DNA of 53,329 nt from Bacteroidales bacterium (lineage in GTDB: Bacteria; Bacteroidota; Bacteroidia; Bacteroidales; UBA10428): positions 1 through 53,329 of the forward strand of contig JAFGEO010000164.1 of the NCBI GenBank assembly GCA_016931575.1, in the 5' to 3' direction. The translations under genes and the position numbers were made by a program. Each line of letters opens with the position of its first letter. Position 1 is the stretch's first letter. The notes beneath the pieces were generated by a model. The model was not told the origin of the DNA. It saw nothing but the letters and a program-made list of their open reading frames with translations, and made no database searches. Below are positions 2,105-22,006 of the stretch, one piece after another.

Positions 2105-2144
2105 AGCTCAAAATTTTTTGTTGTTCCGACCTTGTTCAGGTCAT

Positions 2145-2168
2145 CCCGGCCCCCTAAACTGGGCCGGG
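2145..2168 (-). promoter_or_regulatory. GC-rich intercistronic hairpin between nifN and nifB
   Basis: CCCGGCCC and GGGCCGGG form a perfect 8-bp stem around an 8-base loop in the 74-base gap between the nifN stop and the nifB start. No T-run follows on the minus strand, so it does not look like an intrinsic terminator. It may protect or process the mRNA and set the NifEN to NifB ratio; that role is inference. Confidence 0.6.
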
Positions 2169-2178
2169 ACTCAACATG

Positions 2179-3576: not shown

Positions 3577-3640
3577 GTTGTTTGTTTTGTTGTGTTTGTA
3601 TCCTTCAGGTTGATGCAGCCTGGTTTGGCTATGAAGGGAT

Positions 3641-4978: not shown

Positions 4979-4996
4979 CGCTGCGATTTTTAAAAA

Positions 4997-5033
4997 CCCC
5001 CTCCTGCTCGACCGGAGTCAGACAGGAGGTGGG
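4997..5033 (-). promoter_or_regulatory. Hairpin in the nifK-nifE gap
   Basis: CCTCCTG (5000-5006) pairs with CAGGAGG (5023-5029), and three more G-C pairs extend the stem past a one-base bulge. It lies in the 110-base gap between nifK and nifE. There is no clean U-tract downstream on the minus strand, so partial attenuation or mRNA processing separating structural nifHDK from assembly nifENB messages is more likely than full termination. Confidence 0.5.
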
Positions 5034-5088
5034 TCAAACAACAAAAACAACCTAAATAGTGCCGGGCCTTCGTGCGGGCTCAGCGGAA

Positions 5089-6471: not shown

Positions 6472-6532
6472 AATTTTAGAATTAAAAGTTAAAGTTGAAA
6501 ATTGAGAGTTCAAGCCTGAACCCAAAACCTTA

Positions 6533-8161
6533 TTAATATTCAGCATCAGCGAATTTCGCAACGATCTCAGGCTGATCTTTCCAGGGTGGAGGAATGAGTT
6601 TCCAGATCCTGGTGTTGACCATCCGGTCGATTTCCTTGTAGAAATTCACCGCACCCTTGAACCCGGCGAAAGGTCCGCCATAGTCATAGCTGTGCAGCTG
6701 CTTCAGAGGTATGCCATATTTCTGGATAACATATTTTTCCTTGATGCCGGCGCAGAAGATCGCCGGCTTGTAGTACTCGATCAGCTTCTCTGATTCCCAG
6801 TGGGAAATATCGTCGATAACGAGGCTGTTCTTATCCATATCAGGCATCATTCCCTCATAGTCTGAAAACTTGTACCCTTTGGCTTCCAGTTTTGCTTTCT
6901 TTTCAGGAAGATCCTTACGGAAGAGTTTTTCATCCTTCTCAACTTCGAGTTCTTCGATGTTACGGCTATCAGCATCTACCTTAATGCTACCCAGAACCTT
7001 ACGGCCTTCATAATCATCGCGGTGGGCAAATTCGTAACCTGCAGAAACGGTTTGCATGCCAATTTCCGTGAATAACTCCTGGTAGTGATGGGCACGGGAA
7101 CCCCCTACGAACATCATAGCCAGTTTGCCTTCGCAACGGGGTTTAACGTCTTTTAACGTGTCAGTCACTTCTTGCATCTCTCTTCTGATGAGCTTTTCTA
7201 CTTTCGCCATCATCTCATCATCTTCAAAATATTCAGCAATCTTACGGAGTGACTTAGCGGTTGCCTCTGCACCGATAAAGTTGACTTTGATCCACGGTAC
7301 ACCGTACTTTTTCTCCATCATTTCAGCAATGTAGTTGATCGAGCGGTGGCACATAACCATGTTCAGGTCAACCATGTGGCTATTCTCAAAATCAAGTATC
7401 GATGAGTTACCGCTAAAGGTTGATACGAGAGTGATCCCTATTTCTTCGAAGTAGTTCTCCAGCTCAAAGGCATCTCCTCCAATGTTGTATTCCCCCAGGA
7501 GGTTGATCCGGTATTTTCCGGGACGAACCGAGTCATCCAGACCAACTACATCGGTAAAGATCCTGTTGTTGGCAATGTGGTGCCCGGCAGACTGGCTGAC
7601 ACCTTTGTAACCTTCGCAGCTGAAACCAAAAACGTTAATTCCCAGTTCTTTCTTCATCGTTCGGGCCACAGTGTGAATATCGTCCCCGATCAGACCTACA
7701 GGACAGGTGGAGAAGATGGATATGGCGTGGGGCTTGAAAATTTCGTATGCCTCCCTGATAGCCTGGGCCAGTTTCTTTTCACCCCCGAATACGATGTTTG
7801 AATCCTGCATATCGGTGGAAAAGCAATAGGGTATGAAGTTTGTTCCATCTGCGCCCGCATCGGTTTGGTTCCGGCGCGTCAGCCAGGAATAAAAACCGCA
7901 ACCGATAGGTCCATGTGTAAGGTTTACAATGTCACGGGTAGGCCCGAGAACTACACCCTTACATCCTGCATAGCAGCAACCACGTTGTGTGATGATACCG
8001 GGGATGGTACGGACGTTTGACTGTTGTACCTGGTGTTCCTCCGGATCATTAATTACGATAGAGCCAGCTCTTTTTTTGGCTACTTTCTTGGGATATTTCG
8101 AAAGAATCTCTTCTTTCAGTTCCGAGGGATCAGGAAGTATTGCCTTATTCTTTTTTGACAT
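6533..8161 (-). CDS. nifD: NifD, nitrogenase MoFe protein alpha subunit with group-III type insertion
   Basis: NifD binds FeMo-co and reduces N2. The P-cluster ligands are Cys62, Cys88 and Cys153; the FeMo-co ligands are Cys271 (CHRSINYIAEMMEKKYG) and His490 (LHSYDYGGPFAGF). Gln190 and His194 lie in GVSQSAGHHIAN, matching Azotobacter Gln191 and His195. The distance between Cys271 and His490 is 219 residues against 167 in Azotobacter, so there is an insertion of about 52 residues, seen as a charged Lys/Glu-rich stretch around 395-445. Clostridium pasteurianum NifD is known for a similar insertion. Cofactor residues typical of Mo nitrogenase are present, and no VnfG/AnfG-type delta gene follows, so this is a Mo enzyme. 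Confidence 0.98.
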   Translation of the reverse strand: MSKKNKAILPDPSELKEEILSKYPKKVAKKRAGSIVINDPEEHQVQQSNVRTIPGIITQRGCCYAGCKGVVLGPTRDIVNLTHGPIGCGFYSWLTRRNQTDAGADGTNFIPYCFSTDMQDSNIVFGGEKKLAQAIREAYEIFKPHAISIFSTCPVGLIGDDIHTVARTMKKELGINVFGFSCEGYKGVSQSAGHHIANNRIFTDVVGLDDSVRPGKYRINLLGEYNIGGDAFELENYFEEIGITLVSTFSGNSSILDFENSHMVDLNMVMCHRSINYIAEMMEKKYGVPWIKVNFIGAEATAKSLRKIAEYFEDDEMMAKVEKLIRREMQEVTDTLKDVKPRCEGKLAMMFVGGSRAHHYQELFTEIGMQTVSAGYEFAHRDDYEGRKVLGSIKVDADSRNIEELEVEKDEKLFRKDLPEKKAKLEAKGYKFSDYEGMMPDMDKNSLVIDDISHWESEKLIEYYKPAIFCAGIKEKYVIQKYGIPLKQLHSYDYGGPFAGFKGAVNFYKEIDRMVNTRIWKLIPPPWKDQPEIVAKFADAEY

Positions 8162-8179
8162 GATCTTCTTTTTTAAAAA

Positions 8180-8557
8180 TTAATCTAATACTGAATCTCC
8201 CTTTTCACCTGTACGAACACTGATTGCTTCGTTTGCAGGCAGGACAAATATTTTACCATCACCGGGCTGGCCGGTGCTGTTTGATTGCATCAGGGCCTTT
8301 ACCGCAACTTTAACTTTACTGTCAGGGACCATGAGGGTGATCATTCTGTGGGGCCTCAACCGGGGTTCCGGGCCAAGAAGGGCCAGGGCTTCGGGACGGT
8401 TTTCTCTTACACCTTCCATAACCTTGGCGTCATAGGTTCCTTTGCCACGGCCATAAACCCGGCCTGTCGCCGTGAATGAGGGCAGTCCGGCATCGGATAA
8501 AGCCTTCTTGGTCTCATTCATCGTATCTATTTTTAATATGGCTAAGATTGTCTTCAT
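8180..8557 (-). CDS. nifI2: NifI2, PII-like nitrogenase regulator
   Basis: The 125-residue protein belongs to the GlnB/PII superfamily. It has a long T-loop region (VYGRGKGTYDAKVMEGVRE) and the C-terminal GDGKIFVLPANEAISVRTGEKG signature that marks NifI2. It lacks the uridylylated Tyr of GlnB. In methanogens, NifI1 and NifI2 together bind the MoFe protein and block its contact with NifH when ammonium is present, relieved by 2-oxoglutarate; the same role is inferred here. It sits between nifI1 (29-base gap) and nifD (18-base gap), the diagnostic position for this pair. Confidence 0.95.
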   Translation of the reverse strand: MKTILAILKIDTMNETKKALSDAGLPSFTATGRVYGRGKGTYDAKVMEGVRENRPEALALLGPEPRLRPHRMITLMVPDSKVKVAVKALMQSNSTGQPGDGKIFVLPANEAISVRTGEKGDSVLD

Positions 8558-8586
8558 GTGAATCGACTTTAAAATGAACAGTGAGA

Positions 8587-8913
8587 TTATAATTCTTTGG
8601 TGCCGCGACTTACGGTATAAGCCTCTTCAACCGGGCTGACAAAGATTTTTCCGTCACCAAAAGCACCCTTCTCACCGGTTCTTGCAGATTCAAGGATCGT
8701 GTTTACTGCGAAATCCTTGTCTTCATCCTTAACCACGATCATGAGCATATCTTTCTGTAATTCATCATATGTGATGTCACCCACCTTGATACCACGTTGT
8801 TTTCCACGTCCTACGACAGGGATTTTAGTTACGGCTACATAACCTGCCTCGAAGAGAGCTTTCATTACTTTGGCTGATTTTTCGGGGCGTACAATGGCTC
8901 TTATTAGTTGCAT
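8587..8913 (-). CDS. nifI1: NifI1, PII-like nitrogenase regulator
   Basis: This 108-residue PII-family protein starts MQLIRAIVRPEKSAKVMKAL, has the T-loop segment VVGRGKQRGIKVGDITYDEL, and ends with FGDGKIFVSPVEEAYTVSRG. The T-loop form is that of NifI1 rather than GlnB or GlnK. It is the second gene of the operon, 35 bases after nifH, with a strong ribosome binding site (AAGGAGA) before its ATG. With NifI2 it should sense 2-oxoglutarate and adenine nucleotides and switch nitrogenase off after ammonium addition. Confidence 0.95.
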   Translation of the reverse strand: MQLIRAIVRPEKSAKVMKALFEAGYVAVTKIPVVGRGKQRGIKVGDITYDELQKDMLMIVVKDEDKDFAVNTILESARTGEKGAFGDGKIFVSPVEEAYTVSRGTKEL

Positions 8914-8948
8914 AGCGTTTATCTCCTTTTACTTTATTTCTTTACTAC

Positions 8949-9911
<963 letters not shown>

Positions 9912-9984
9912 TTATTGAAATATTTTAGTACGTCCTTGTCCCGATACTGAAATACTACTTGCTGGTCGGCATTGATAGGGCGTT

Positions 9985-10000
9985 CCTACATTTTGGTAGG
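9985..10000. promoter_or_regulatory. Dyad CCTAC-N6-GTAGG, candidate activator site upstream of nifH
   Basis: A perfect 5-bp inverted repeat with a 6-base spacer lies about 180 bases upstream of the predicted nif transcription start, the usual distance for a sigma-54 enhancer. No TGT-N10-ACA (classical NifA site) was found between 9774 and 10225. Binding by the NifA-like protein is inference; short dyads also arise by chance. Confidence 0.35.
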
Positions 10001-10049
10001 ATTAATATTCAGGAAGGGTTTGAGGTCCAGCCTATCTGCCTGCATTCGG

Positions 10050-10087
10050 ATAATTATCACACTTATTGGCCTAAGCCTATAATTATC
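10050..10087. repeat. Two direct copies of the palindrome ATAATTAT(C) in the nifH upstream region
   Basis: ATAATTATC occurs at 10050-10058 and 10079-10087, 29 bases start to start, just under three helical turns. The core ATAATTAT is self-complementary. The pair lies in the 452-base region shared by nifH (leftward) and the barrel gene at 10226 (rightward). It could bind a dimeric regulator of either gene. Nothing else gene-like is seen in this region. Confidence 0.35.
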
Positions 10088-10225
10088 TGCTGAAAGCAAC
10101 CTATTGAGAAAAATATTGTTCTTACTTATGCAAGCGGCTTATAACAGAATGAATGAGCAGTCGGGCACTAGAACTCATGCAGGCACGTTAATAGGATTAC
10201 ACTACTTACTTACACAGATTTTCAT

Positions 10226-10960
10226 ATGTCAAAGCGTACACTATTTACTATAACACTAGCCATTTTTCTTGGAACAGGACTAAATTTGAATGCACAGGAC
10301 AATGTCGCTAAACTGAATTTAGGCGGACTGGTTTTCCGAAGGATTGAGCTGGGATACGAACGGGTGCTAACCGATAAGCAGTCTGCAGCATTAAGTTTTG
10401 GATATACCCTGCCGATAAGAATTCCAGGGTTAAACTCGGCAGTGACCATCCTGTCAGTTATGGAGCCAGCCGAAATAAGTTCTTCCATGAGTGGGATACG
10501 GGCTACAGGAGAATACAGGTTCTACCTGAATGCTGATCAGAAGAAACGGGCCCCGAGGGGCCTATACCTCGGACCCTATCTTTATATGACCAATTACCAT
10601 GTTGATGGCAGGGCATCCCTTTCCGACTATTACATTTCAGCTGAAGGGAATATGTTTACATTCGGGGGCGGGGCCCAGATCGGTGTGCAATGGTTAATAG
10701 CCGACAGGGTCTCCATCGATTTCACGATCCTGGGCCTTGGTCTGGCACAAACAAGGATAAAGGGGGAATTCAGGTCAAGTGCCACCTCACCGGATTATAA
10801 TGCCCTGGTGGAGGATATCAGTGCTTTCTGGGAAAATTTGTCTGTTATCGGGGGTAATGATAAGCTTGAACTGGAAGCCTATGATAATGGCATATTTGCC
10901 GGTTACACCACCTTTGCTCCTGGCTTCAGGGCAGTGTTGTCGATCGGGGTGGCTTTTTAG
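10226..10960 (+). CDS. Exported outer-membrane beta-barrel protein, DUF3575-like
   Basis: The 244-residue protein has a signal peptide ending NLNAQ at about residue 24. The mature start KLNLGGLVFRRIELGYERVL resembles DUF3575 proteins of Bacteroidota, and the chain alternates aromatic and glycine residues as in small barrels, ending in Phe (LSIGVAF). It is transcribed away from nifH, with a 452-base shared upstream region, and converges on the HAD gene at 11041. No substrate or partner can be named. A link to nitrogen fixation rests only on the shared intergenic region and is weak. Confidence 0.75.
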   Translation: MSKRTLFTITLAIFLGTGLNLNAQDNVAKLNLGGLVFRRIELGYERVLTDKQSAALSFGYTLPIRIPGLNSAVTILSVMEPAEISSSMSGIRATGEYRFYLNADQKKRAPRGLYLGPYLYMTNYHVDGRASLSDYYISAEGNMFTFGGGAQIGVQWLIADRVSIDFTILGLGLAQTRIKGEFRSSATSPDYNALVEDISAFWENLSVIGGNDKLELEAYDNGIFAGYTTFAPGFRAVLSIGVAF

Positions 10961-11040
10961 AAAGGAGGATCACCGGATAAGGTATTGCGTGCCTGTATTC
11001 GGAAGCCTGGCAGCCGGGAAACATCTTTATGCTCCTGGCT

Positions 11041-11829
11041 TTATTCCGCTACGATCTCACCTACTCCCTTCAGGATATAGCTGGGCTGGTACGGAAACTG
11101 CTTGATGGTCCCGCGTGTGGAAATACCGCTGAGTACCAGGCAGGTATCGATCTCAGACTCAATCCCGGCAATGATATCCGTATCCATCCTGTCCCCGATA
11201 ATTACCGTCTCCTCCCTGGTACAACCCAAAATTTTGAGGGCATTCCGCATCATCAGCGGGTTGGGCTTACCGACAAAGTAGGCATTTTTTCCGGTTGCCA
11301 TCTCAATGGGGGATATTAAGGCTTTTGTTGCAGGGGCGATGCCTTCCTCTATGGGACCCGAAACATCGGGATTGGTGCCGATTAGCTTGGCCCCGCGCAG
11401 GACAAGATTTACGGCTTTTTCAATCTTTTCATAGCCATACGATCGTGCTTCCCCCATCACAACATAATCAGGATCAATGTTGTTCATGGTATACCCCACA
11501 TCATACAGGGCATTAATGAGCCCGGCCTCTCCGATAATATAAGCGCTGCCCCTGGGCTTCTGGCTCGCCAGGAACATGGCCGTTGCCAGGGCGGAGGTAT
11601 AAAACTTATCTTTATCCACTTTGATGCCCAGTCTGGCCATTTTTTCCTGTAATTCTTTCGGCGTGCGTTCCGATGAATTGGTCAGGAATAGAAATTTCTT
11701 TTTCTCCCCGGTTAGCCATTCAACAAATTCTCTGACCCCTGGCAAAAGTTTATTTCCATGGTATAACACACCATCCATATCGCAGATGAAGCCGTTTTTT
11801 GCTTTTAAGCTTGCTAGATTTTTTTTCAT
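11041..11829 (-). CDS. HAD-superfamily phosphatase, NagD-like (subfamily IIA)
   Basis: The protein of about 262 residues has HAD motif I DMDGVLYHG (nucleophile Asp17, general acid Asp19), motif II FLTNSS and motif IV VIIGDRMDTDI, with the C2 cap of NagD-type enzymes between them (GTNPD and KPNPLMM regions). Such enzymes dephosphorylate nucleotides, phosphoglycolate or 4-nitrophenyl phosphate in the cytosol. The frame is open from a TTG at 11865; the ATG at 11829 is preferred because family members start shortly before motif I. The substrate is unknown. It stands alone, convergent with the barrel gene. Confidence 0.88.
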   Translation of the reverse strand: MKKNLASLKAKNGFICDMDGVLYHGNKLLPGVREFVEWLTGEKKKFLFLTNSSERTPKELQEKMARLGIKVDKDKFYTSALATAMFLASQKPRGSAYIIGEAGLINALYDVGYTMNNIDPDYVVMGEARSYGYEKIEKAVNLVLRGAKLIGTNPDVSGPIEEGIAPATKALISPIEMATGKNAYFVGKPNPLMMRNALKILGCTREETVIIGDRMDTDIIAGIESEIDTCLVLSGISTRGTIKQFPYQPSYILKGVGEIVAE

Positions 11830-12059
11830 TTCCTGTTCAAAATACCTTTGCAGCTGATGGATCAATGCCCTAAATCCTGTAACAGGTTTTTTTAGGTGAA
11901 TTGATCCATAAAAGTAGTAAGATATTGCGTTTTTCCATGTTTCCTGGTCCGGAATAACTCACAAACTGTGCTTTATAACTAGTCGCCGGAAATCCGGATA
12001 AAATCTGATCCCGGGAATCGATATCCCTGTTGGGTTTTCCGGAAGACAGAAAATCACCC

Positions 12060-12245
12060 TCAGTTCGTTTGCCACCGTGTTCCCCGCCGGTAAAACTCAA
12101 TGTATTCCTTTTCCCAGTCGGTTTCAGCTTTGTGCTCAGTTTCCGGGTGAGTGTTCACCGCCGGTTTGGTTCCATTTTTCAGAATAAAGAAAAAATTCTT
12201 TATTACAGCTTTTAAAAAAAGCTTTTTATTCATACGTGTTTTCAT
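12060..12245 (-). CDS. Possible small basic/amphipathic protein downstream of rex
   Basis: A frame of about 61 residues follows rex; an upstream ATG at 12269 would overlap the rex stop by 14 bases. It has a basic, aromatic N-terminal helix (KKLFLKAVIKNFFFILKNG) and a charged C-terminus rich in Glu, Trp and Arg, a composition that looks protein-like. An AGGG lies just before the ATG at 12245. No family is recognised. It may be a small membrane-associated protein co-transcribed with rex or chance. The rest of 11830-12255 shows no gene. Confidence 0.35.
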   Translation of the reverse strand: MKTRMNKKLFLKAVIKNFFFILKNGTKPAVNTHPETEHKAETDWEKEYIEFYRRGTRWQTN

Positions 12246-12255
12246 AACCCTATAG

Positions 12256-12933
12256 TTAAATTTGACCATATTGCTTATTTTTCAATTCCTTCAACCGTTG
12301 CAGGAGGATAGCCACATTTGCATACATTGAAGTGTTCTGGACGACGACAGAATCAGGTACCTGGAGGAAAGTCGGGGTAAAATTCCAAATGGCTTTGATT
12401 TTGGCATCCACCATGATGTCTACAGCTTCCTGAGCAATCCGTGCAGGCGTCGTCAGGATCCCGATCTCGACCTTTAGCCGTGTGACCAGCTCGTTCAGGC
12501 GGCTGACATGCATAACACTCACGTTGCCAATCTGTGTTCCGACCTTCGTGGGTGCGACATCAAAAGCTGCGATGATCTTGATACCAAAACCACTCAGGTT
12601 ATCATACGAAAGAAGGGCAGAGCCCAGGTTCCCTGCACCTACCAGAATTGCTTCGCTTTTGGTATTCAGGCTCAGAAAGTCTTCAATGATCCGGATCAGC
12701 TCATAGGTAACATATCCAACCCGGGGTTTGCCCACAGCACCAGTATAGGAAAGATCCTTAACAATTTGAGTGGGATCGTAATTCAGCTCCCTGGCGATAG
12801 CCGGCGCTGAAATATTCATCTGCCCCTGTTCCCAGATACCCTGCAAAAAGTGCAGGTAACGGGGGAGGCGCCTGAGTGTTGGTTCAGGAATTTCAGTGCG
12901 GGGGCGCTTCCTATGGAGATCCTTCTTTGTCAT
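12256..12933 (-). CDS. rex: Redox-sensing transcriptional repressor Rex
   Basis: Rex represses fermentation and anaerobic respiration genes and is released by high NADH/NAD+. The 225-residue protein has an N-terminal winged helix (residues 15-85, with PAIARELNYDPTQIVKDLSY) and a Rossmann NADH domain with GAGNLGSAL at 99-107, then the C-terminal NTSMYANVAILLQRLK domain-swap helix. The start is the ATG at 12933 (MTKKDLHRK); the frame upstream begins only with TTG. A TAnnTTTG box lies 16 bases upstream. Its place next to nifA and near the nif operon suggests, but does not show, redox control of nitrogen fixation. Confidence 0.95.
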   Translation of the reverse strand: MTKKDLHRKRPRTEIPEPTLRRLPRYLHFLQGIWEQGQMNISAPAIARELNYDPTQIVKDLSYTGAVGKPRVGYVTYELIRIIEDFLSLNTKSEAILVGAGNLGSALLSYDNLSGFGIKIIAAFDVAPTKVGTQIGNVSVMHVSRLNELVTRLKVEIGILTTPARIAQEAVDIMVDAKIKAIWNFTPTFLQVPDSVVVQNTSMYANVAILLQRLKELKNKQYGQI

Positions 12934-12948
12934 GATTAATAATTGATA

Positions 12949-12956
12949 CAAATATA
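12949..12956 (-). promoter_or_regulatory. TAnnTTTG -7 box of rex
   Basis: TATATTTG on the minus strand matches the Bacteroidota housekeeping -7 element exactly; TTTT lies 19 bases upstream where TTTG is expected. The start ATG is 16 bases downstream, so the leader would be under 10 bases. Confidence 0.5.
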
Positions 12957-12957
12957 G

Positions 12958-13001
12958 AAAAAACTTTTATTAAAGAAAAATATCTTTAATAAAAGTTTTT
13001 T
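12958..13001 (-). terminator. Perfect 18-bp inverted repeat, AT-rich, between nifA and rex
   Basis: AAAAAACTTTTATTAAAG (12958-12975) and its exact complement (12984-13001) flank an 8-base loop. In the direction of nifA transcription it forms a hairpin ending in a T-run, about 166 bases after the nifA stop. It also lies directly against the rex -7 box, so it may instead be an operator, for example for Rex autoregulation. Both readings are inference. Confidence 0.6.
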
Positions 13002-13166
13002 TACTCATCATATTTTCTGGTCGGGGGATTTGGTATCTAGGAAGGAAAAGTAATGAATTCAGATTCGTGTCTTGTCTGGAGGTAGTTCTTATCCTGCTTA
13101 TACTACCCTGTAAAATGTTTTGAGGATACCTACAGCTTTCTTGCAGGACGGTAGTCACGGAATTCC

Positions 13167-14744
13167 TTAGCCGCGCTTATACCTTCTGGGATCAATATCA
13201 TACTTTTTAGCCCTAAGGCCCATGATGCGTTCGGTGATGCCAAGCTGGGCTGCAGCCTTAGCCAGGTTTCCATGGGTTTGAAGCAGGGTTTCAATGATCA
13301 GCTGCTTCTCTACACGGTCGAGGATGACCTGCAGGGTACCTTTCGATTCAGTACTTGAAGAAGTCGCCGTTTGCAGGGTTGGGGGCAGGTTGTGGGCGCG
13401 GATAACGCCATCGGTGGTCAGGATGGAGGCACGCTCAATACAGTTTTCCAGCTCGCGGACATTGCCGGGCCAGTGGTAGACCATCAGCATGTCGATGGCC
13501 GAGGAGGAGATGCGCTTGATCTCTGTATAGTTTTCCCGGTTGCATTTTTGTATGAAATGATCAACCAGCATCGGAATGTCGTTGATCCTTTCTTTAAGTG
13601 ACGGAACATAAATTGGAAAGACATTGAGACGGTAGAAAAGGTCCTCACGAAATGTTCCCTTTTCGATAAGGTTTTCAAGGTTCCGGTTGGTGGCTGCCAC
13701 AATTCGGACATTGGACTTGATGGTTTCAGCACCTCCGACCCGTTCATATTCTTTTTCCTGAAGGGTCCGTAAAAGCTTCACCTGGACCGTGGCCGGCAGG
13801 TCGCCGATCTCATCCAGGAAGATGGTTCCACCCTCAGCCAGTTCGAAGCGGCCTTTCCGCAGTTTTTCTGCGCCAGTAAAAGCCCCTTTTTCGTGGCCGA
13901 AAAGTTCACTTTCGATCAGACTTTCAGGCAGGGCTGAGCAGTTTACTTTGATCAGCGGGGCTTCCGATCGCGGGCTGTTGTAATGTATCGCATCGGCAAT
14001 CAGCTCTTTTCCTACTCCGCTTTCACCACGGATCAGTACGGTGGCATTGGTGGTTGCTACCCTTTCGATAAGCTTGTAGACTTCACGCATGTGGCCCGAA
14101 TTCCCGATCATATTGGAGGGGATGAACTTGTCCTTCAGTTCGATATGAAGTTTGGCGTTCTCCTCCTTTAATCGTTCGATCTCTTCCAGCCTGTCCTGCC
14201 GGGCCCTTACAAACTGGGCAATCATGCTTCCAAGAATGGTTAAGATCCGTACCTGTTCGTTGTGATCATCCCCTTCCTTGAAGGCTACATCGATGCTTAG
14301 GGTCCCGGATATCTGATCTTCCACCTTTACGGGCACACAGATAAAGGTGATATGCCTCCGGTCGGAAGTAAGAAGTTTTGATTTCGTACGGTTTAAATAG
14401 GTATTGTCTTTCAGGATCTTCGGGATGACAATGGGTTCACCGGTTTTTACCACCCTTCCGATGGCTCCTTCCCCTATCTGGTATACACCAAGGGCCTTGG
14501 CCGCCTCACTGATCCCATACCCCCGCTCGATAAAAATACTGGAATTTTCACGATTCAGAATGGTGATAATGGTCCGCTCAGCGGAAAGGTAGGTCGAGAT
14601 TATTTCCAGGATGCTATCCAGGTCTTCCTTGATATTCCGGCTGTTATTCAGCCTGCGACTGACATCCAGCAATAAAGGCAGTTCCGTGGATCCGTAACAT
14701 TCTCTCCCCGTTTTCTCACAATAGATATGCCTTTCTAGTCTCAT
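13167..14744 (-). CDS. nifA: NifA-like sigma-54-dependent activator (GAF-AAA+-Fis HTH)
   Basis: The 525-residue protein has an N-terminal GAF domain (about 25-180), a linker helix, then the sigma-54 AAA+ domain with Walker A GESGVGKE at 240-247, the sigma-54 contact loop GAFTGA at 287-292 and Walker B GGTIFLDE at 305-312. A Fis-type helix-turn-helix at 493-516 ([25 protein letters not shown]) closely resembles NifA recognition helices. Alternatives such as NorR are less likely given the nif context. The N-terminus has a Cys9/Cys16 pair; the interdomain Cys-x4-Cys of rhizobial oxygen-sensitive NifA is absent. It should activate the promoter at 9826-9840. Confidence 0.9.
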
Positions 14745-14895: not shown

Positions 14896-15606
14896 TTATA
14901 ACAAGCGGCCATGTGTTTTTAATATCAGGTAAAAAGCTTTCTGATAGCTTTCGGATACCGGAATGATCTGATCGCCGATGTGAATGCGGTGATTGCTGAT
15001 GGATTCGATCTTATTCAGGGCCACTACCCAGGATTTGTGGACCCTTACAAAATCATTTTCGGGCAGGATATTCATCAGGGAGGTGAAATTCTGCAGGCAC
15101 ATCAGTCTTTTTTGTCGGGTCACGATTCCCAGGTAGTCTTTCATGCCCTCGACATAAAGGATGTCGTTCAGGAATACCCGTTCGATCTGGTAGGCTGTTT
15201 TCACAAATATCAGATCCGATGCAGTTCCTGTTTTTTGTTCACGGACAGGATTTCCGATAAGTTCTCTGGCCTTAACCACTGCCTGCATGAACCGCTCGAA
15301 GGGATAGGGCTTCAGGAGGTAGTCGATTACTTCGAGTTCATAAGCTTTTAGAGCGTACTCATGAAATGCCGTGGTGATAATCACCCTGGGTTTGTTTGGC
15401 AGGGATTCCAGCAACTGGATACCGTTCAGCTTGTCCATCTGGATGTCCAGGAAAAGAAGGTCCGGGGTATGGGTGGTGAGGTAATTGAGTGCATTCAGGC
15501 TGCTGGAGAAACTGGCCTGCAGCGAAAGAAAAGGGACATCGCTGATGAAACTTTCAAGCTTCTTCAGGGCCATAGGTTCATCTTCAACAGCAATGCAGTT
15601 AATCAT
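14896..15606 (-). CDS. LytTR-family response regulator
   Basis: The 236-residue protein has a receiver domain (residues 1-120) with acidic pocket Glu8-Asp9-Glu10, phospho-acceptor Asp54 (LLFLDIQM) and the YLLKPYPFERF segment containing the conserved Lys. A LytTR DNA-binding domain (about 135-235) follows, with ILYVEGMKDYLGI and FVRVHKSWVVALNKI signatures. It overlaps the kinase gene by 8 bases and is its cognate partner. LytTR regulators often control cell-surface or stress genes. The target could be its own operon of membrane proteins or the protease gene upstream, but no binding sites were resolved. Confidence 0.93.
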   Translation of the reverse strand: MINCIAVEDEPMALKKLESFISDVPFLSLQASFSSSLNALNYLTTHTPDLLFLDIQMDKLNGIQLLESLPNKPRVIITTAFHEYALKAYELEVIDYLLKPYPFERFMQAVVKARELIGNPVREQKTGTASDLIFVKTAYQIERVFLNDILYVEGMKDYLGIVTRQKRLMCLQNFTSLMNILPENDFVRVHKSWVVALNKIESISNHRIHIGDQIIPVSESYQKAFYLILKTHGRLL

Positions 15607-16612
15607 GGTATTTCAGGTTTAGCCTGACCCGGTAAAGATCAGATTTTTTTTCGATCTCCAGTTCATACCTTCGGGGATAGTAAGCTTCCAGCCTTTTTTT
15701 TACGTTTTCTATCCCCAGGCCCCCGACTGACTTCTCCTGCCGGTGTGGATCGAAATAATTGGTGCAGATGAAATCGAGAGCGGAGCCATCGTCGAGTAAA
15801 AACACCGTAACAAGGGGCTTGCCTTCTTTTTCGCTCGCAAACTTCAGGGCATTCTCCACAAAGGGCAGCAGCAGGAAGGGCCTGATCTGCCTGTCACCAT
15901 CAAGGATGGAATGTTTAAACTGGATGGCATCGGGAGACTGGTGCCGTAAACGGTGAAGATCAAGCAGGTCTTCAAGGTATTTCTTTTCCTGACTAAGACG
16001 GACAAGTTCCGTATTGGTTTCATAAAGCATGTAACGCATCATATCTGAAAGCTTGATGATGGCCTGGGAGGCCATTTTCGGGTCGTGGCGGATCAGGGAA
16101 TCAATGTTATTCAGGGTATTGAACAGAAAATGGGGGTTGACCTGGTTCCGGAGCAGGTTCAGCTCGTTTTGCAGGTTGATCTTTTCCTGTTCGGCTTTAT
16201 TTTCCTGTGAATTATACCAGTGTTCAAATGCCCGGATAAGTGTACCCAGTTGAATCAGGATGAAAGTGGTAATGGTCGAGCCGGTGTAGAGCCGGAGGGT
16301 AAGCATCTCCTGGATATCCTGAAAACCAAGATAAAGTACCGAGAAGAAGAATCCGCTGATCAGGGGGCTTGCTGCCAGCGAGCTTATCAGGTAACGGTAA
16401 GGTTTTCGCTGTTGCAGGATGAAGTTTGCCAGCCGGAAATAGGTCATATAAACAGCGACAGCGGCCCAAACCAGGTGGACGATATAGACCGGGTAATAGG
16501 CTTTAAAAAATTTCCAGCCATCCGTGATATTAAAGGCGGTCTGTAGCGAAAGGGCTATGAATACCGACCAGAAGATCAGGTGTACAGAGGTAAAGATCAG
16601 CTTCTTCAACAT
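15599..16612 (-). CDS. LytS/YehU-type sensor histidine kinase
   Basis: The 337-residue protein has four predicted membrane helices (about 7-25, 41-60, 76-95, 112-128), then a His_kinase domain with the phospho-acceptor motif NQVNPHFLFNTLNNID (His161) and an ATPase domain with LLPFVENALKFA and GGLGIENVKKRLEAYY. There is no separate periplasmic sensor domain, so the signal is probably sensed in the membrane or through a partner. It starts 26 bases after the fourth small membrane gene and overlaps the regulator by 8 bases, so the small membrane proteins are candidate sensory partners. Confidence 0.93.
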   Translation of the reverse strand: MLKKLIFTSVHLIFWSVFIALSLQTAFNITDGWKFFKAYYPVYIVHLVWAAVAVYMTYFRLANFILQQRKPYRYLISSLAASPLISGFFFSVLYLGFQDIQEMLTLRLYTGSTITTFILIQLGTLIRAFEHWYNSQENKAEQEKINLQNELNLLRNQVNPHFLFNTLNNIDSLIRHDPKMASQAIIKLSDMMRYMLYETNTELVRLSQEKKYLEDLLDLHRLRHQSPDAIQFKHSILDGDRQIRPFLLLPFVENALKFASEKEGKPLVTVFLLDDGSALDFICTNYFDPHRQEKSVGGLGIENVKKRLEAYYPRRYELEIEKKSDLYRVRLNLKYHD

Positions 16613-16638
16613 AGTTCAAAGATACTCTAATGTATGGA

Positions 16639-17049
16639 TCATCGGAACGAAAATCCTCTGTCCCTGATGGACCCTGTAGGAATCAACGCCGGGATAAAGA
16701 AGCAAAGTATCATTACAGCAAGAAATGCAGCCATAAAAATAGTGCCCCCGGGCAGTATAAATTCAAGGGCCAGGCGCACGGCGTAAACGATTCCCAGAGT
16801 AAGCAACAGGAATCGTCCCAACAGGCTCTCCGTTATGTTTTTTCTGAACCGGATGCACATGATGCCGATAAGCAGGAAAAAGGTGGCCAGACAATAGTTC
16901 AGCATAAGCATGATATTTCTGTCGATCGTGCTAAGGGTGGAGAGGGTATCTTTCCAGTTGAAAAGATACCAGAACGCAAAATGGAAGAGGGCACCAAGGA
17001 TGTTAAGAATACCTCCTGCCAGCAGTAAAAATGAGTTAGTTTTTGTCAT
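16639..17049 (-). CDS. Small four-helix membrane protein (fourth of four in the LytS operon)
   Basis: The 136-residue protein is almost entirely membrane helices (about 5-25, 45-65, 77-95, 98-120) with a basic C-terminus (RDRGFSFR). The first helix begins LLLAGGILNILGALFHF, with a Gly 11 residues before a His. The same Gly-to-His pattern occurs in the three preceding genes, so the four are probably distant paralogues. It overlaps the preceding gene by 14 bases and ends 26 bases before the kinase gene. No function is known. Signal modulation for the kinase, or being its regulated output, are both possible. Confidence 0.78.
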   Translation of the reverse strand: MTKTNSFLLLAGGILNILGALFHFAFWYLFNWKDTLSTLSTIDRNIMLMLNYCLATFFLLIGIMCIRFRKNITESLLGRFLLLTLGIVYAVRLALEFILPGGTIFMAAFLAVMILCFFIPALIPTGSIRDRGFSFR

Positions 17050-17482
17050 GGTTTTTATTTTTTATCAGTCCGGTCAGGAACAGCACACCAATAGCCAGTG
17101 AATAGAGTGAAAAGAACGGATACAGGGTACGTTCCGGCTTCTGAAAGGATATTAAATAGTGGATATCATAGAAAATAACCAGTCCCCTAAATGTGAAAAC
17201 GATGGCTATAATCCAGCTGATGGTTTTTTTCCATGGAAGGAATGGTCTGCCTGTTGCTGTTGCATAGCTATAGATGCTGCATACCAGGAACACGAGCGCG
17301 AGGAACAGAGTAGTGATCATGGGCACAGGGGATCCGTTTCTGTCTTCCCGGGCAAAATCCTCTCCCGCACCAAAGCTGATATAGAGATCTCCCCCCGCGA
17401 GAGCGATGTAAACATGCAGAAGAGATACCAGGAGCACCAGGAAACTTCCAGCCAGCAGAAAATAGCTGTATTCTGTTTTCAT
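17036..17482 (-). CDS. Small four-helix membrane protein (third of four)
   Basis: The 148-residue protein has four hydrophobic segments and starts with FLLAGSFLVLLVSLLHVYIAL, again with a Gly 11 residues before a His in helix one. The first loop, GGDLYISFGAGEDFARED, is acidic and probably extracytoplasmic. The C-terminus is basic (IKNKNHDKN), fitting a cytoplasmic end. It overlaps the preceding gene by 4 bases and the next by 14, showing translational coupling. It resembles the uncharacterised small membrane proteins of Bacteroidota; no enzymatic motif is seen. Confidence 0.78.
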   Translation of the reverse strand: MKTEYSYFLLAGSFLVLLVSLLHVYIALAGGDLYISFGAGEDFAREDRNGSPVPMITTLFLALVFLVCSIYSYATATGRPFLPWKKTISWIIAIVFTFRGLVIFYDIHYLISFQKPERTLYPFFSLYSLAIGVLFLTGLIKNKNHDKN

Positions 17483-17928
17483 TGTCTGGAAGTTGTTGTT
17501 GCATTCCGCATATTCCTCATGCTTTTATACAGGTTTTGGATCAGCATAAAAAGTGCATGAGGCAGCATAATGAAGGTCATGCCGGAATTCGGGACCATAT
17601 AAACCCCCAGCCCGACGAAGAGAAGATAGCTTATCGTAAAGCTATGGGGCAGGTACTTCTGCTTTCTCAGTATTTCGAAAACCAGGATTCCCAGGGGAAT
17701 CAGCAGGATTCCAAAGTAGAAGAACCAGAAAGCTGTAAAAGCTTCGAAATCGGTTTTCCCGGCAGCCGGTGGCAGTTCTGCCATTCCTGAGCTGATGCGA
17801 AAAAAACCGGAGCCGGCAAATTCCGACATTTTATACCCAAAACCCTCCGGGGAAAAGGCCAGACTGGTATGTAACAACCCGATCAGAATCAGGATGCTGC
17901 CTTGATTAATATAGTTTTGGACTCTCAT
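17479..17928 (-). CDS. Small four-helix membrane protein, DUF6463-like (second of four)
   Basis: The 149-residue protein opens with a membrane helix containing GSILILIGLLHTSLAF (Gly 10 residues before His). A soluble loop of about 35 residues follows, then three more helices and a basic tail (KSMRNMRNATTTSRQ). The layout, with an extracytoplasmic FAGSGFFRIS loop, resembles DUF6463 proteins, a family with no known function. It overlaps the genes on both sides by 4 bases. Tight coupling suggests equal production of the four proteins, perhaps as a complex. Confidence 0.78.
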   Translation of the reverse strand: MRVQNYINQGSILILIGLLHTSLAFSPEGFGYKMSEFAGSGFFRISSGMAELPPAAGKTDFEAFTAFWFFYFGILLIPLGILVFEILRKQKYLPHSFTISYLLFVGLGVYMVPNSGMTFIMLPHALFMLIQNLYKSMRNMRNATTTSRQ

Positions 17929-18305
17929 ACTGTTTGCGCTTTAAGATGAGTGCTACTCACTGCCAGTAAGACAGTCCCGATAACAGCAACCAGGAGGCTC
18001 AGCCAGGCAAAGGGGTTCTCCGGCATGCAACAGGCAGCCAGTATTCCTGCCAGCAGTATGAAACCGAACGTAAGCCTGATACGAAGGTTGTCGGCCTTGC
18101 CTTCTTTTACCAGGTTTGACTCCTTGATGAGGATCCATCCGACATAGATAAAGGCCATTCCGGTGGCTAAAAACATAAAGAGGAAAGGTTTGAAAATTGC
18201 CTTTGGAATTCCCCGCATGATGAAAGGGGTAAAGGCGCAATGGATAACTCCAAGCAGCAGTTCAAGACTGCCAACAATCCGGAGGGTTCTGATGAAAAGT
18301 TTCAT
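17925..18305 (-). CDS. Small four-helix membrane protein (first of four)
   Basis: From the ATG at 18305 the protein has 126 residues, with helices at about 4-22, 30-50, 70-88 and 98-118. Helix one contains GSLELLLGVIHCAF, the shared Gly-to-His motif (spacing 10). The frame is open to 18416, but the added 37 residues are not membrane-like and would overlap the protease gene's stop, so the internal ATG is preferred. It overlaps the next gene by 4 bases and begins the run of six coupled genes. The 107 bases upstream should hold the operon promoter; no exact TAnnTTTG was seen there. Confidence 0.74.
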   Translation of the reverse strand: MKLFIRTLRIVGSLELLLGVIHCAFTPFIMRGIPKAIFKPFLFMFLATGMAFIYVGWILIKESNLVKEGKADNLRIRLTFGFILLAGILAACCMPENPFAWLSLLVAVIGTVLLAVSSTHLKAQTV

Positions 18306-18412
18306 AATTTCAGGAATTGATTCCCGACAAAATTCCCGGATTTCCCCTGTTTGAACAAAAAAAATATATGTCCCGGGCAGAGTATCCGACCAGTTGGGCA
18401 GATTGATCGATA

Positions 18413-21400
18413 TCAATCCCTGCTAATCAGGATCAGCGCATGTTCTGAATGATGCATTTCAATGATTTGAAGGATATAGATCCCGGTTGGAAGTGAGAAG
18501 AGATCAAGGGTAACCGTCTCGTTTCTTTGGAGCTCACCAATGGTGTTCTTCATCAGGATATTCCCGCTTTCACTGAGAATATGAATCTCGACCTGCTCCC
18601 GGTTGCGGTCAGTGAATTGAAAATTCAATGTCCCCGAAGTCGGATTTGGATGGATCCTGAGTACTTCAGAATGTGGCAGGGTTTGGAGAGCTATTACATC
18701 AGTAATTTTTAACTTGACTGTGTCGGAAACAATACATCCCAGACTGTCTGTAACCCTTAACCATACAGAAAATTCACCCACCCCCAGCTGTTCCCCTTCC
18801 AACTTAAGAGAGGAGCTGGTGGAGCCGTCAAACCACACATAAGCGTCAAAGTTGTCTGAACTTGCTAACAGCGTGTATTCATCGAGGAATATTGTTGTGT
18901 CGGAAAAGGCAAATAATTCCGGATACTCACCAATTGTCAGATTCACCTGCCATGCATCACTTTCAATATCCTGTATGGTTTGTGTAACATAAAAGGGATA
19001 GGTTCCCGGGGCATTAATGCCGGTGCTGTAAGGACTGCCTGAATACAAAAGCTGCGAGAGTTCAGGATCAATATACCACTTAATATTCTGGCCGGAAGCA
19101 GTCATATTCGGTATAGTTTCGCCAAAACAGGCAAACTGATCTTCAGAATCAGGTGGTAAGGGGGTTATTGTCAGCGATATTTTGATCGCCTGGCTGCTGC
19201 AATCCTCTGTCTGTGTTACATAATAAGTATACATGCCGGGTTGGTCCATACCCGTTTGAAAAGTGTCGCCTTCAAATACACACTGAGTCAGTGTCTCGTC
19301 AGCATACCAGCAGATATCTTCCCCTTCGGCAATCAGGGGAGGAATAACGTCTCCATATATAACTTCCACATCCTGAACAACAGGAGGGGAAGGCACGGGA
19401 TAAATGGTGAGGGTGAGTCCTGCAGGCTCACTTTCAAATCCTGCTTTGGTCTGGGTAGCATATAGGGTGTATACTCCCGGCGCCATAAAGGCATTTCGAA
19501 GGGTATCACCCGATGCGAGCAGGGAGGGATTTGCCTGAATGCACCGTACGGAATGATATTGGCTCATACAATAAAAATCCCGGTTGATCTTAGATTCATT
19601 ATTGCTGAAACTTCGGGCCACACCTAAGTTGGTTAAGGTAGTATATGAACGTGTCCAGAAGTAGGCTTTTTCACCCTGAAAAACAAAATCGCTTCCGGAG
19701 TAAAAGCCAGCAGGCAGCACGGTAAAACCATAATCATCGGTACCAAAATTTTCTGGCAACCAGTGTTCTTCTCCGGGTTCTTTCAACTTATTCCCCTCAG
19801 TGGTTCCTCTCCAGCCGCCCATATTGGATGCACTTACTGACATGCCGATTGTTCGCTCGAGGATCTTCCATTCCTCATCACTGGGTAGTTTCCAACCGGA
19901 TGGGCATACCTTCCTGGCTGTTTCCCAGGTATATAACCGGCCATATACTTCCGCATTGTTCAGGCTATCGTGCTCAATATAAGCTGATCCTTCCGGTGTG
20001 AAAAAATTCAGGTTTTCGGCCATCCAGATCTGTTCGCCGATTTGTACACTTTTATAGGTTTGTCCGTCCCGGGGGTCGGTGTTTCCGGGAGCAAGGTACC
20101 AGTTAAGGTTTTCTCCCTCAGCAGTGACTTCCAGAGGACATCCGGTACAACCTATGGCGTCTGAAACAAGGGGAGGGTTCACTTCAGTAAAGATGGTGAG
20201 GGTAACTTTATCATCACCTCCCTCACAACTACCAAGGGTTTGGGTTACATAAAACTGATGGATCCCCGGACTGCTTATTCCCGGAGAATAGGTGGTGCCC
20301 TCATGGATAAGCTGGGTGAGATCTGCATCGGCATACCACTTTACCCCGGTTCCGGTGGCAACCAAATCGGGGATGGGCTCTCCCTCATTGATGATAGTAT
20401 CACGGACCAATGGAGGTAAGGGCAGGAGGGTGTAACGGCCATAGGAATCTATAGGACCCAGACAGGGATCGGAGTCATCCCCATCCCGCAAATCAGGACA
20501 TGGAGGACAATGATCCGGTTTTGGACCGGTACCCCAGGAATAGTAGCCGTCACCATCGTTGTCAACACATGCAATATCCAGCTTGCTATGTCCGTAGGAA
20601 CTATGTAAGCTTAGACGGTAAACCCATCCAAGGTCTGAAACATCGCAAACAATCCATGCATAGCCCTGTTCCCCGAAATTGGTTCCATAGGAATTTTTTA
20701 TCTGCCAGGCTGTTTGTCCTACCAATGGATCGCCTTCTGCTATTTTGATCCAGGGGATTTCGGATGAATTTGTGTAGATCGAATCGCCGGGCTCAATCGT
20801 TTTATATCCGGCCAGGGCGACAACATGTGACCAGGGCAGGACTTCCATGGTAACAGGCCCCGTGATGATCATGGTTTTCACACAGTCAAAAGTTTGGGTC
20901 CAGTAATAAATAGTGCCCAGGATGATGCGGTTATCATAATAACTACACAGATTACACGGTGCATTATCCGCTATGTAGGGGAAGCAGGCTTCATCCCGGA
21001 TACCCTTATTTTGTATGTGGTTCAGGGCCAATGTCAGATTACCTCCTGAGCAGTCTCCCGCTTCTGAGCAGGATACCAGTTCCTGTTCAGAAAGATCGAG
21101 ATCCAGGTGCCGGTTAAAATAAATATTTGCCAGCAGTTCAGTTGCTGCCACAGCACCGAATGCCCAACAACTTCCACAGCCCTGCTGATTTTTAACGGGT
21201 GTCATCCAGTCTTGTCCATGACGGTGCCGCCAGTTAAATTCCTTTACGTAAGGCAATTCGATCTTTGCCGGGGGAGGAAGGCTCATTTTTGAGCGGCGTG
21301 AAGCATTAAAGGTACCAGGCATAAGGTAAATGCCTCCTGTGTAGTATTCAAACCCCTGTAAATTAGGTATTCTCCCTCCAAAGAAAAGCTTCTTCTCCGC

Positions 21401-22006
21401 ATAGCTCATTTCAGACAGGGAGGTTTTTCCGGCTATCCATTTTTGACCGGTTCGCTGAAGGCTTGTGTTGATGCTTTTGATTTTTTCCGCCTGTTGCTCC
21501 TGTTGCTGCAGTAGCGTTCTTTTTCGGGCTGTCTGGAGGTCCTGTCCTACGATAATTTCTTTGAGGAGCAGGGAGGCATCAATTATTTCAATTTTCAGAG
21601 AGACAGGAACGACATGGTTCAAATCTACGGTCTCATCCGCAAACCTGGTTATCGAGAAATGTTGTTTGTTGTTCAGCAGCGGATAAGTCTCGTACACCAG
21701 GTATTCTGAAAATTTTTCATCAATTAGGATGATACGCACCAGGCTGGTATCCGAGTTTAAACTTATTTCCGCATCGATCGCTAAGCCTGAAACAGCTTCC
21801 CTGACAGTAAAAGGATAAAGGGTGATACCTTGACTGATCTGTTTTTGTACAGCAATTTTTTTTATATTGTTCTGGTTCAGACGGAAAGCCTGTGGAGAAT
21901 CTTGTGCATGCAGGTTATGTCCGGCAGTAAGGCTAAAGAACAGGAGATTTAATAAGCATATACCATGCTGAAAGATTTTTTTCTGTACAGGATTCACTGA
22001 AAACAT
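18413..22006 (-). CDS. T9SS-secreted papain-like (C1) cysteine protease with FISUMP and Ig-like repeats
   Basis: The 1,197-residue protein has a signal peptide (cleavage near LHAQ35), an N-terminal region, then a C1 peptidase domain (about 255-475) with oxyanion Gln274, catalytic Cys280 (GCGSCWAF), His394 (WSHVVALAGY) and Asn438 (IKNSYGTNFGEQGY), so all catalytic residues are present. A Cys/Asp-rich, possibly calcium-binding stretch follows (NDGDGYYS), then Ig-like repeats each containing a [VI]-x-W-Y module and F-Y-V-T-Q-T, interrupted by a FISUMP domain (about 655-825). The last 80 residues are a T9SS type A sorting domain (HPNPTSG, PTGIYILQI). It should be exported through T9SS and anchored or released at the surface. 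Confidence 0.93.
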   Translation of the reverse strand: MFSVNPVQKKIFQHGICLLNLLFFSLTAGHNLHAQDSPQAFRLNQNNIKKIAVQKQISQGITLYPFTVREAVSGLAIDAEISLNSDTSLVRIILIDEKFSEYLVYETYPLLNNKQHFSITRFADETVDLNHVVPVSLKIEIIDASLLLKEIIVGQDLQTARKRTLLQQQEQQAEKIKSINTSLQRTGQKWIAGKTSLSEMSYAEKKLFFGGRIPNLQGFEYYTGGIYLMPGTFNASRRSKMSLPPPAKIELPYVKEFNWRHRHGQDWMTPVKNQQGCGSCWAFGAVAATELLANIYFNRHLDLDLSEQELVSCSEAGDCSGGNLTLALNHIQNKGIRDEACFPYIADNAPCNLCSYYDNRIILGTIYYWTQTFDCVKTMIITGPVTMEVLPWSHVVALAGYKTIEPGDSIYTNSSEIPWIKIAEGDPLVGQTAWQIKNSYGTNFGEQGYAWIVCDVSDLGWVYRLSLHSSYGHSKLDIACVDNDGDGYYSWGTGPKPDHCPPCPDLRDGDDSDPCLGPIDSYGRYTLLPLPPLVRDTIINEGEPIPDLVATGTGVKWYADADLTQLIHEGTTYSPGISSPGIHQFYVTQTLGSCEGGDDKVTLTIFTEVNPPLVSDAIGCTGCPLEVTAEGENLNWYLAPGNTDPRDGQTYKSVQIGEQIWMAENLNFFTPEGSAYIEHDSLNNAEVYGRLYTWETARKVCPSGWKLPSDEEWKILERTIGMSVSASNMGGWRGTTEGNKLKEPGEEHWLPENFGTDDYGFTVLPAGFYSGSDFVFQGEKAYFWTRSYTTLTNLGVARSFSNNESKINRDFYCMSQYHSVRCIQANPSLLASGDTLRNAFMAPGVYTLYATQTKAGFESEPAGLTLTIYPVPSPPVVQDVEVIYGDVIPPLIAEGEDICWYADETLTQCVFEGDTFQTGMDQPGMYTYYVTQTEDCSSQAIKISLTITPLPPDSEDQFACFGETIPNMTASGQNIKWYIDPELSQLLYSGSPYSTGINAPGTYPFYVTQTIQDIESDAWQVNLTIGEYPELFAFSDTTIFLDEYTLLASSDNFDAYVWFDGSTSSSLKLEGEQLGVGEFSVWLRVTDSLGCIVSDTVKLKITDVIALQTLPHSEVLRIHPNPTSGTLNFQFTDRNREQVEIHILSESGNILMKNTIGELQRNETVTLDLFSLPTGIYILQIIEMHHSEHALILISRD

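Follow-up and report, generated by a model that had tools for sequence, protein, structure and literature searches.

Organization of the locus

We analyzed a stretch of 53,329 nt from a Bacteroidales bacterium (contig JAFGEO010000164.1, positions 1 to 53,329; hereafter the window), in which four genes for small membrane proteins, here called A to D, stand in front of the genes for a LytS-type histidine kinase and a LytTR response regulator. All six genes lie on the minus strand. Gene A (17925–18305, 126 amino acids) encodes a small four-helix membrane protein without a Pfam family above cut-off or an NCBIfam family, gene B (17479–17928, 149 amino acids) a DUF6463 membrane protein, gene C (17036–17482, 148 amino acids) a four-helix membrane protein with sub-cut-off similarity to DUF3995, and gene D (16639–17049, 136 amino acids) the small four-helix membrane protein that forms the core of the cassette. 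They are followed by the LytS-type membrane histidine kinase (15599–16612, 337 amino acids, PF06580) and the LytTR response regulator (14896–15606, 236 amino acids), which combines a PF00072 receiver with a PF04397 LytTR domain. An earlier note on this DNA, made from the letters without database searches, had described one six-gene run with overlaps of 4 (A/B), 4 (B/C), 14 (C/D) and 8 bases (LytS/LytTR) and a gap of 26 bases between D and LytS, and this layout proved exact. A candidate LytTR site on the same strand (18375–18404) consists of the period-21 direct repeats AATCTGCCC (18404–18396) and ACTCTGCCC (18383–18375) and lies 70–99 bases 5' of the ATG of gene A, the open reading frame (ORF) of which also offers an alternative TTG start at 18416.

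By domain, the two regulators are ordinary LytS and LytTR proteins. LytS matches PF06580 with an expectation value (E) of 1.1e-22 (80.5 bits) and has His161 in an NPHFLFN box; ENALK and GGLGI boxes, which we take to be the N-box and G-box of ATP binding, were found by motif near positions 252 and 296, and HATPase_c gave no Pfam match in LytS at E 1. The regulator matches PF00072 at E 6.7e-18 (65.3 bits) and PF04397 at E 1.5e-16 (60.9 bits) and carries Asp54. The view that the kinase has no sensor domain is right in that the histidine kinase domain is the only one above cut-off, but LytS has a membrane region of its own, for which simple hydropathy gave 2 to 5 helices depending on the setting and which holds invariant residues among nine aligned kinases.

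D accompanies one clade of LytS kinases

Next, we placed the kinase in a tree of 105 kinases, built with a quick method and with support from the Shimodaira–Hasegawa-like approximate likelihood ratio test (SH-aLRT) only. Thirteen kinases including that of the window form one clade (SH-aLRT 97), the exact placement of the window kinase within it being unsure because of its long branch. Ten members of the clade have D, two are ended by a contig edge and one (L032/L061; L numbers denote individual loci) is without D. Accordingly, D was observed in the kinase operon of 10 of the 11 clade members with readable flanks compared to 0 of 92 other LytS; upstream sequence reaches 500 bases or more in 89 of these 92 and 1000 or more in 87. 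The D label requires two changes on the kinase tree. A similar distribution was found for any small gene with at least three helices in the upstream same-strand run (10/11 in the clade versus 2/89 in the others, leaving out the 3 of 92 with less than 500 bases). Duplicate loci (L028, L030 and L035, identical to L011, L076 and L102) were removed before the tree was built, and L029 and L079, where LytS lies at a contig end, were left out of the adjacency count. Of the 11 informative members, L010 and L173 entered the set by way of D and are not independent; the other nine, eight of them with D, derive from the window itself, the search with the kinase or the scan with the regulator. Early loci served as seeds for the profiles of LytS and LytTR; two of these, L057 and L061, show no visible D, and L067, L103 and L173 lie outside the LytS seed profile. 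The proposed link between the small proteins and the LytS/LytTR pair is thus supported for D, while A, B and C are swapped between loci.

Related cassettes are shuffled

The kinase search covered 393 genomes of the order, 205 of which match the window LytS at E 1e-30. Scanning the contigs of named genomes with a LytTR alignment gave a sample of at least 80 loci, and among those listed D stands beside four kinases (L067, L076, L102 and L103). With F for a DUF2867 protein and E and G for further small membrane proteins, the gene order in front of LytS–LytTR is F-D-A in L010, F-E-D-A in L011, F-D-B in L056 (where the B relative shows 51% identity), E-F-D in L058, D-F-G in L059 and D-F in L060; L076 is the same locus as L058 and L102 the same as L060. 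In L103 D is the sole small gene next to LytS. Within the genus of Bacteroides ihuae D was found at E 1e-15 in 6 of 99 genomes, and five of these six have the cassette (the LytS of L196 ends at a contig edge), the sixth D standing alone (L197). In total we counted 14 distinct cassette loci, window included, in which the gene order is shuffled. DUF2867 is present in 11 of 13 readable cassettes and absent from those of the window and L103, L067 being unreadable. A search of eight genomes for DUF2867 at E 0.001 found no match in the whole genome of the window, and the seven others all have one in the cassette.

The expectation that the four genes are conserved together failed: within the 14 loci A occurs in three, B in two and C in one. 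A-B-C-D as one conserved unit was rejected, since the full set is found only in the window. In samples of class genomes that include the window's own, one of 247 has B, two of 247 have C and one of 295 has A, and single-sequence searches of the 23 genomes of the window's family (its own included) returned D in three and A in six. A search of plasmids gave no relatives of B and two weak ones of C, and relatives of A outside LytS cassettes are present at L022–L025. The sole C relative in the class sample is one of two tandem small multi-helix membrane genes at L186, located between genes that look Crp-like by eye. At L058/L076 (Bacteroides ihuae) and L195, an HlyD-type adaptor (profiled in L058 only) and a long multi-helix protein, by eye similar to the resistance–nodulation–division (RND) type, follow LytTR on the same strand.

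Period-21 repeats upstream of the cassettes

The binding sites of LytTR regulators are pairs of repeats, direct or inverse, of 9–11 nt each and 11–13 nt apart (PMC4847170, which like the other papers cited here was available in part). We defined the promoter zone as 130 to 40 bases 5' of the first cassette gene. Repeats agreeing in at least 8 of 9 positions were observed at period 21 in 4 of 10 loci (window, L056, L059 and L103) and in none at the other periods from 12 to 33; of 500 letter shuffles, 466 gave no locus and 34 gave one. After addition of the Bacteroides loci and removal of L067, the upstream part of which is cut, 13 loci remained. At the same threshold four of these show period 21, two period 28 and none any other period, and at 7 of 9 or better eight show period 21, five period 14 and at most three any other. 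The first period-21 repeat begins 76–99 bases 5' of the cassette start, window included, where internal starts had been set for the first genes of L010, L060, L103 and L193 (one codon early in L010 and L060).

Period 21 also exceeds its neighbors elsewhere: it was found in 21 of 322 non-cassette upstream regions compared to 3–8 at the other periods from 18 to 25, and in 20 of 91 ordinary LytS operons compared to 1–10 at the other periods from 14 to 29. Because of this shared excess, the period-21 geometry is, by these counts, a general mark of LytS operons here and not specific for the cassette. Among the ordinary LytS operons preceded by such a repeat are L070, L075, L110 and L120, with half-sites similar to TTGCAG/TTTGCAGA, and a period-21 repeat of this form is a candidate for the common LytTR box of Bacteroidota. 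A scan for promoter and terminator consensus sequences gave counts similar to those in shuffles.

Families and kinship of the small membrane proteins

B belongs to DUF6463 (PF20064, E 1.8e-11, 44.4 bits, above the Pfam gathering cut-off of 26). C reaches DUF3995 (PF13160) with E 3.3e-6 and 28 bits, which is under the gathering cut-off of 34.3, and A and D have no family above cut-off in Pfam or NCBIfam. None of the four matches PF13781 or another DoxX family in Pfam, nor LiaI-LiaF-TM, PspC or Toastrack, and HHalign of each of them against a DoxX_3 protein gave a probability of at most 0.6%. Across all settings used, simple hydropathy predicted four helices in A, C and D but 1, 3 or 4 in B, so that the description of all four as four-helix proteins holds for A, C and D and depends on the setting for B.

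The Gly/His pattern claimed for the first helix is indeed present in all four proteins. Taken alone this motif is weak evidence: G-x(8-10)-H arises in 15–31% of shuffles of each N-terminus and was also found in 3 of 24 unrelated small membrane ORFs. It deserves more weight because the histidine of the first transmembrane helix (TM1; His22 in A, His20 in B and His23 in C) is conserved among relatives, namely in 7/7 A, 2/2 B, 2/2 C (the second C sequence being a match of 22% identity), 12/12 D and 24/24 wider D-like proteins. In D, His23, Trp32, Arg92 and Glu96 are invariant in eight aligned relatives, and an AlphaFold2 model calculated from five sequences has four main helices (mean predicted local distance difference test, pLDDT, 71; predicted template modelling score, pTM, 0.57).

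For the proposal that A to D are four paralogues, we compared profiles with HHalign and used 24 unrelated small membrane ORFs as controls, which are single sequences and make the comparison lenient. Scores of 34.3 (A–D), 32.9 (C–D), 28.4 (A–G), 30.0 (C–G) and 28.9 (D–G) were obtained, compared to control maxima of 19.2 for A, 17.9 for B, 17.7 for C, 16.0 for D and 20.1 for G. A–C (11.3), A–B (14.7) and B–D (13.8) lie inside the control range, and B–G (21.6) and B–C (18.5) are marginal, the latter just over the best controls of its two partners. The C–D score leans on a second, distant C sequence: when C alone was compared with the D profile, the score was 10.8, lower than 17 of the 24 controls, and D alone against the C profile gave 22.5, higher than all 24. 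In the C–D alignment the TM1 His, the Arg of the third transmembrane helix (TM3) and an acidic residue coincide. BLAST among the four proteins gave short matches only, the best of them between C and D (E 0.010). We read these scores as indicating that A, D and G are distant kin, and less surely C as well, with the kinship of B unproven. Paralogy has support for A and D and, less surely, for C and D; the paralogy of all four was dropped, as B is not clearly above the control scores.

D-like proteins without LytS

A D profile, seeded with cassette D plus one orphan, was run against 395 genomes of the class; at E 1e-6 it gave 36 D-like proteins from 35 genomes. Among the 28 loci L145–L172, 25 have DUF2071 and a UbiE-like methyltransferase in the flank, one has the methyltransferase alone and two have neither. 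L145 is an orphan D and L146 a cassette; L147–L172, considered as possible cassettes, turned out to be methyltransferase operons. The D-like proteins of the DUF2071 operon score between 9e-17 and 6e-7 against the D profile compared to less than 1e-26 for cassette D. They have the same TM1 His and TM3 Arg as cassette D, but no LytS/LytTR was seen in these operons. A literature search for DUF2071 together with a methyltransferase found nothing. At L175 the DUF2071/methyltransferase operon has an added DoxX_3 protein. Since D-like proteins occur without LytS in the DUF2071–methyltransferase operon, the comparison suggests that they have a function of their own. A DUF2867 relative is fused to an NmrA-type, reductase-like domain at L177 and A stands beside flavodoxin at L025; because of these genes and the methyltransferase and DoxX_3 next to D-like proteins, we guess, from gene neighbors only, that the target of the small membrane proteins might be a lipophilic or redox-active molecule. 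At L162 a DCC1-like protein adjoins the widespread DUF2071/methyltransferase/D-like operon.

Interpretation and alternative explanations

With moderate confidence we favor the reading that the locus is a modular, autoregulated two-component cassette of Bacteroidota, in which the small membrane proteins are the output of the LytTR regulator. Judged by the protein families, the LytS clade would sense through its own membrane region and phosphorylate the regulator, which in turn would bind the period-21 direct-repeat pair before the first gene and control the whole operon. Its main output would be the small membrane proteins, with D joined by exchangeable partners (DUF2867, A, B, C, E or G); the version in the window would do without the DUF2867 partner and have B and C instead. 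Together they may form a membrane-embedded complex with a protective or modifying action on a lipophilic or redox-active molecule, as the gene neighbors faintly hint, using buried His and Arg/Glu, and they may also feed back on the kinase. We infer the phosphorelay, the autoregulation and the membrane-protein output. An output under autoregulation is favored because in some of the loci the cassette is preceded by LytTR-type repeats. The small proteins had been left as either sensor or output of the kinase; the repeats narrow this choice toward output, alongside which feedback on the kinase is possible.

Several observations weigh against this reading. One clade member (L032/L061) has no D. Five of the 13 promoters (L058, L195, L196, L060 and L173) have no period-21 repeat at 7 of 9, and the loci are not all independent, as L193/L194 and L058/L195/L196 are close relatives. 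In the window the half-site (CTGCCC) fits the common GCAGA form only in inverse orientation, and a start of gene A at the TTG would place the repeats within the ORF. The chemistry of the output rests on neighbors only: the D model gave no fold match in the PDB (best match E 5.2), no credible solved structure was found by sequence for D, B or DUF2867, and a structure model of DUF2867 (pLDDT 37.6) was set aside.

A bolder and rather improbable extension is that the D superfamily (A, C, D and kin) would represent a novel class of His/Arg/Glu proteins that sit in the membrane, where they bind or oxidize a lipophilic molecule, and that are near-obligate partners of the LytS clade. The kinase would then read the state of the substrate in the bilayer and answer with more of the same proteins, forming a lipid/quinone sensor–effector loop within one operon. 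It is possible, though we would not expect it, that D and its partners act as accessory sensors or inhibitors, which contact LytS in its membrane region and adjust its activity in the manner of LiaF or of the inhibitory membrane proteins of LytTR Regulatory Systems (LRS); the operon would then be a signaling unit with its true targets elsewhere. The presence of D beside 10 of 11 readable clade kinases and the absence of a recognized input domain in LytS agree with such a role; moreover, there are known cases of a LytTR regulator encoded together with a membrane inhibitor (PMC6193735), and four-helix LiaI-LiaF-TM proteins accompany two-component systems, sometimes with LytTR (PMC11237479). However, the partners besides D are freely swapped, D-like proteins occur without a kinase nearby and a DUF2867 relative is fused to a reductase-like domain (L177), all of which fits less well with a dedicated accessory of the kinase.

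A channel or a small transporter built from these proteins, for a substrate sensed by LytS and comparable to LytSR-LrgAB or the pyruvate carriers of LytS/LytTR systems, seems unlikely to us. lrgAB is under LytSR control (PMC4830213), pyruvate carriers are connected with LytTR systems (PMC9504724, PMC7730263) and the operon encodes several small membrane subunits, but A to D have no transporter family above cut-off and L103 has D alone beside LytS. A role in the control of nitrogen fixation in the organism of the window seems very unlikely. It would be suggested by the downstream genes of the same strand, where a nifA-like gene at a distance of 151 bases comes first and rex and a nif cluster come next; however, no nif-like gene was seen by eye beside other cassettes, the neighbors of which were not systematically profiled, and no period-21 repeat at 8 of 9 lies between LytTR and nifA. 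A hairpin after the LytTR gene is no stronger than in shuffles and gives no verdict on this point. Least probable of all is a chance clustering of unrelated small membrane genes in a LytS/LytTR operon: the exact A-B-C-D set is confined to the window, and B and C are as rare in the class as given above, but the clade-wide linkage of D and the period-21 repeats make chance hard to hold for D, while it stays possible for C.

Comparison with known systems

Like the cassette, LytSR-LrgAB of Staphylococcus aureus combines a multi-helix LytS and a receiver-bearing LytTR regulator with regulated membrane proteins (PMC4830213). However, A to D have no LrgA or LrgB family match, and here several small proteins, shuffled among relatives, are encoded inside the kinase operon, with DUF2867 in most relatives. 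LRS (HdrRM, BrsRM) share a LytTR protein co-encoded with a membrane protein and direct repeats near the promoter, and in ‘LRS-like’ Bacteroides operons the membrane gene comes first, as in the window (PMC6193735). LRS regulators have no receiver, whereas the regulator of the window has a receiver and a kinase partner, which places the cassette outside LRS; in the ‘LRS-like’ operons the regulator itself has membrane segments, in the accessible part of that source. Lia and phage shock protein (Lia/PSP) systems with LiaI-LiaF-TM also have small four-helix proteins together with a two-component system, sometimes of the LytTR type (PMC11237479), but A to D, E and G have no Pfam match to Lia/PSP domains, and Toastrack, PspC and PspA were not seen by eye beside the cassettes, where neighbors were not systematically profiled.

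The cassette had been called undescribed, and a literature search with few subscription papers within reach indeed gave no description of the gene set. For DUF6463, DUF3995, DUF2867 and DUF4345 it returned only one passing mention each of DUF2867 and DUF4345, and for LytTR with Bacteroidetes or small membrane proteins the cassette was not described in titles or abstract openings. To our knowledge, the inputs and outputs of most LytS/LytTR pairs of Bacteroidota are unknown. Such pairs are abundant in this phylum, as illustrated by the 205 of 393 genomes with a match to the window LytS. A clade tied to D and with a readable candidate promoter box, to which five genomes in the genus of Bacteroides ihuae contribute members, offers a testable pair of signal and output. 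It also sets DUF6463, DUF2867 and the still unnamed families of A and D in a context for the first time.

Genes flanking the operon

Directly downstream of the LytTR gene, positions 845–14744 of the minus strand hold nifB, nifK, nifD, a PII-like gene, nifH, rex and the nifA-like activator, the last of which scores 505.7 bits, just under the equivalog cut-off of 528.85. Judged by these genes, the window probably comes from the genome of a nitrogen-fixing member of the Bacteroidota. On the other side of the operon, a gene on the same strand (18413–22006) encodes a protein of 1197 amino acids with papain-type protease, Fib_succ_major, Ig-like and Por secretion tail domains, and its end shares 4 bases with gene A if the latter starts at the TTG.

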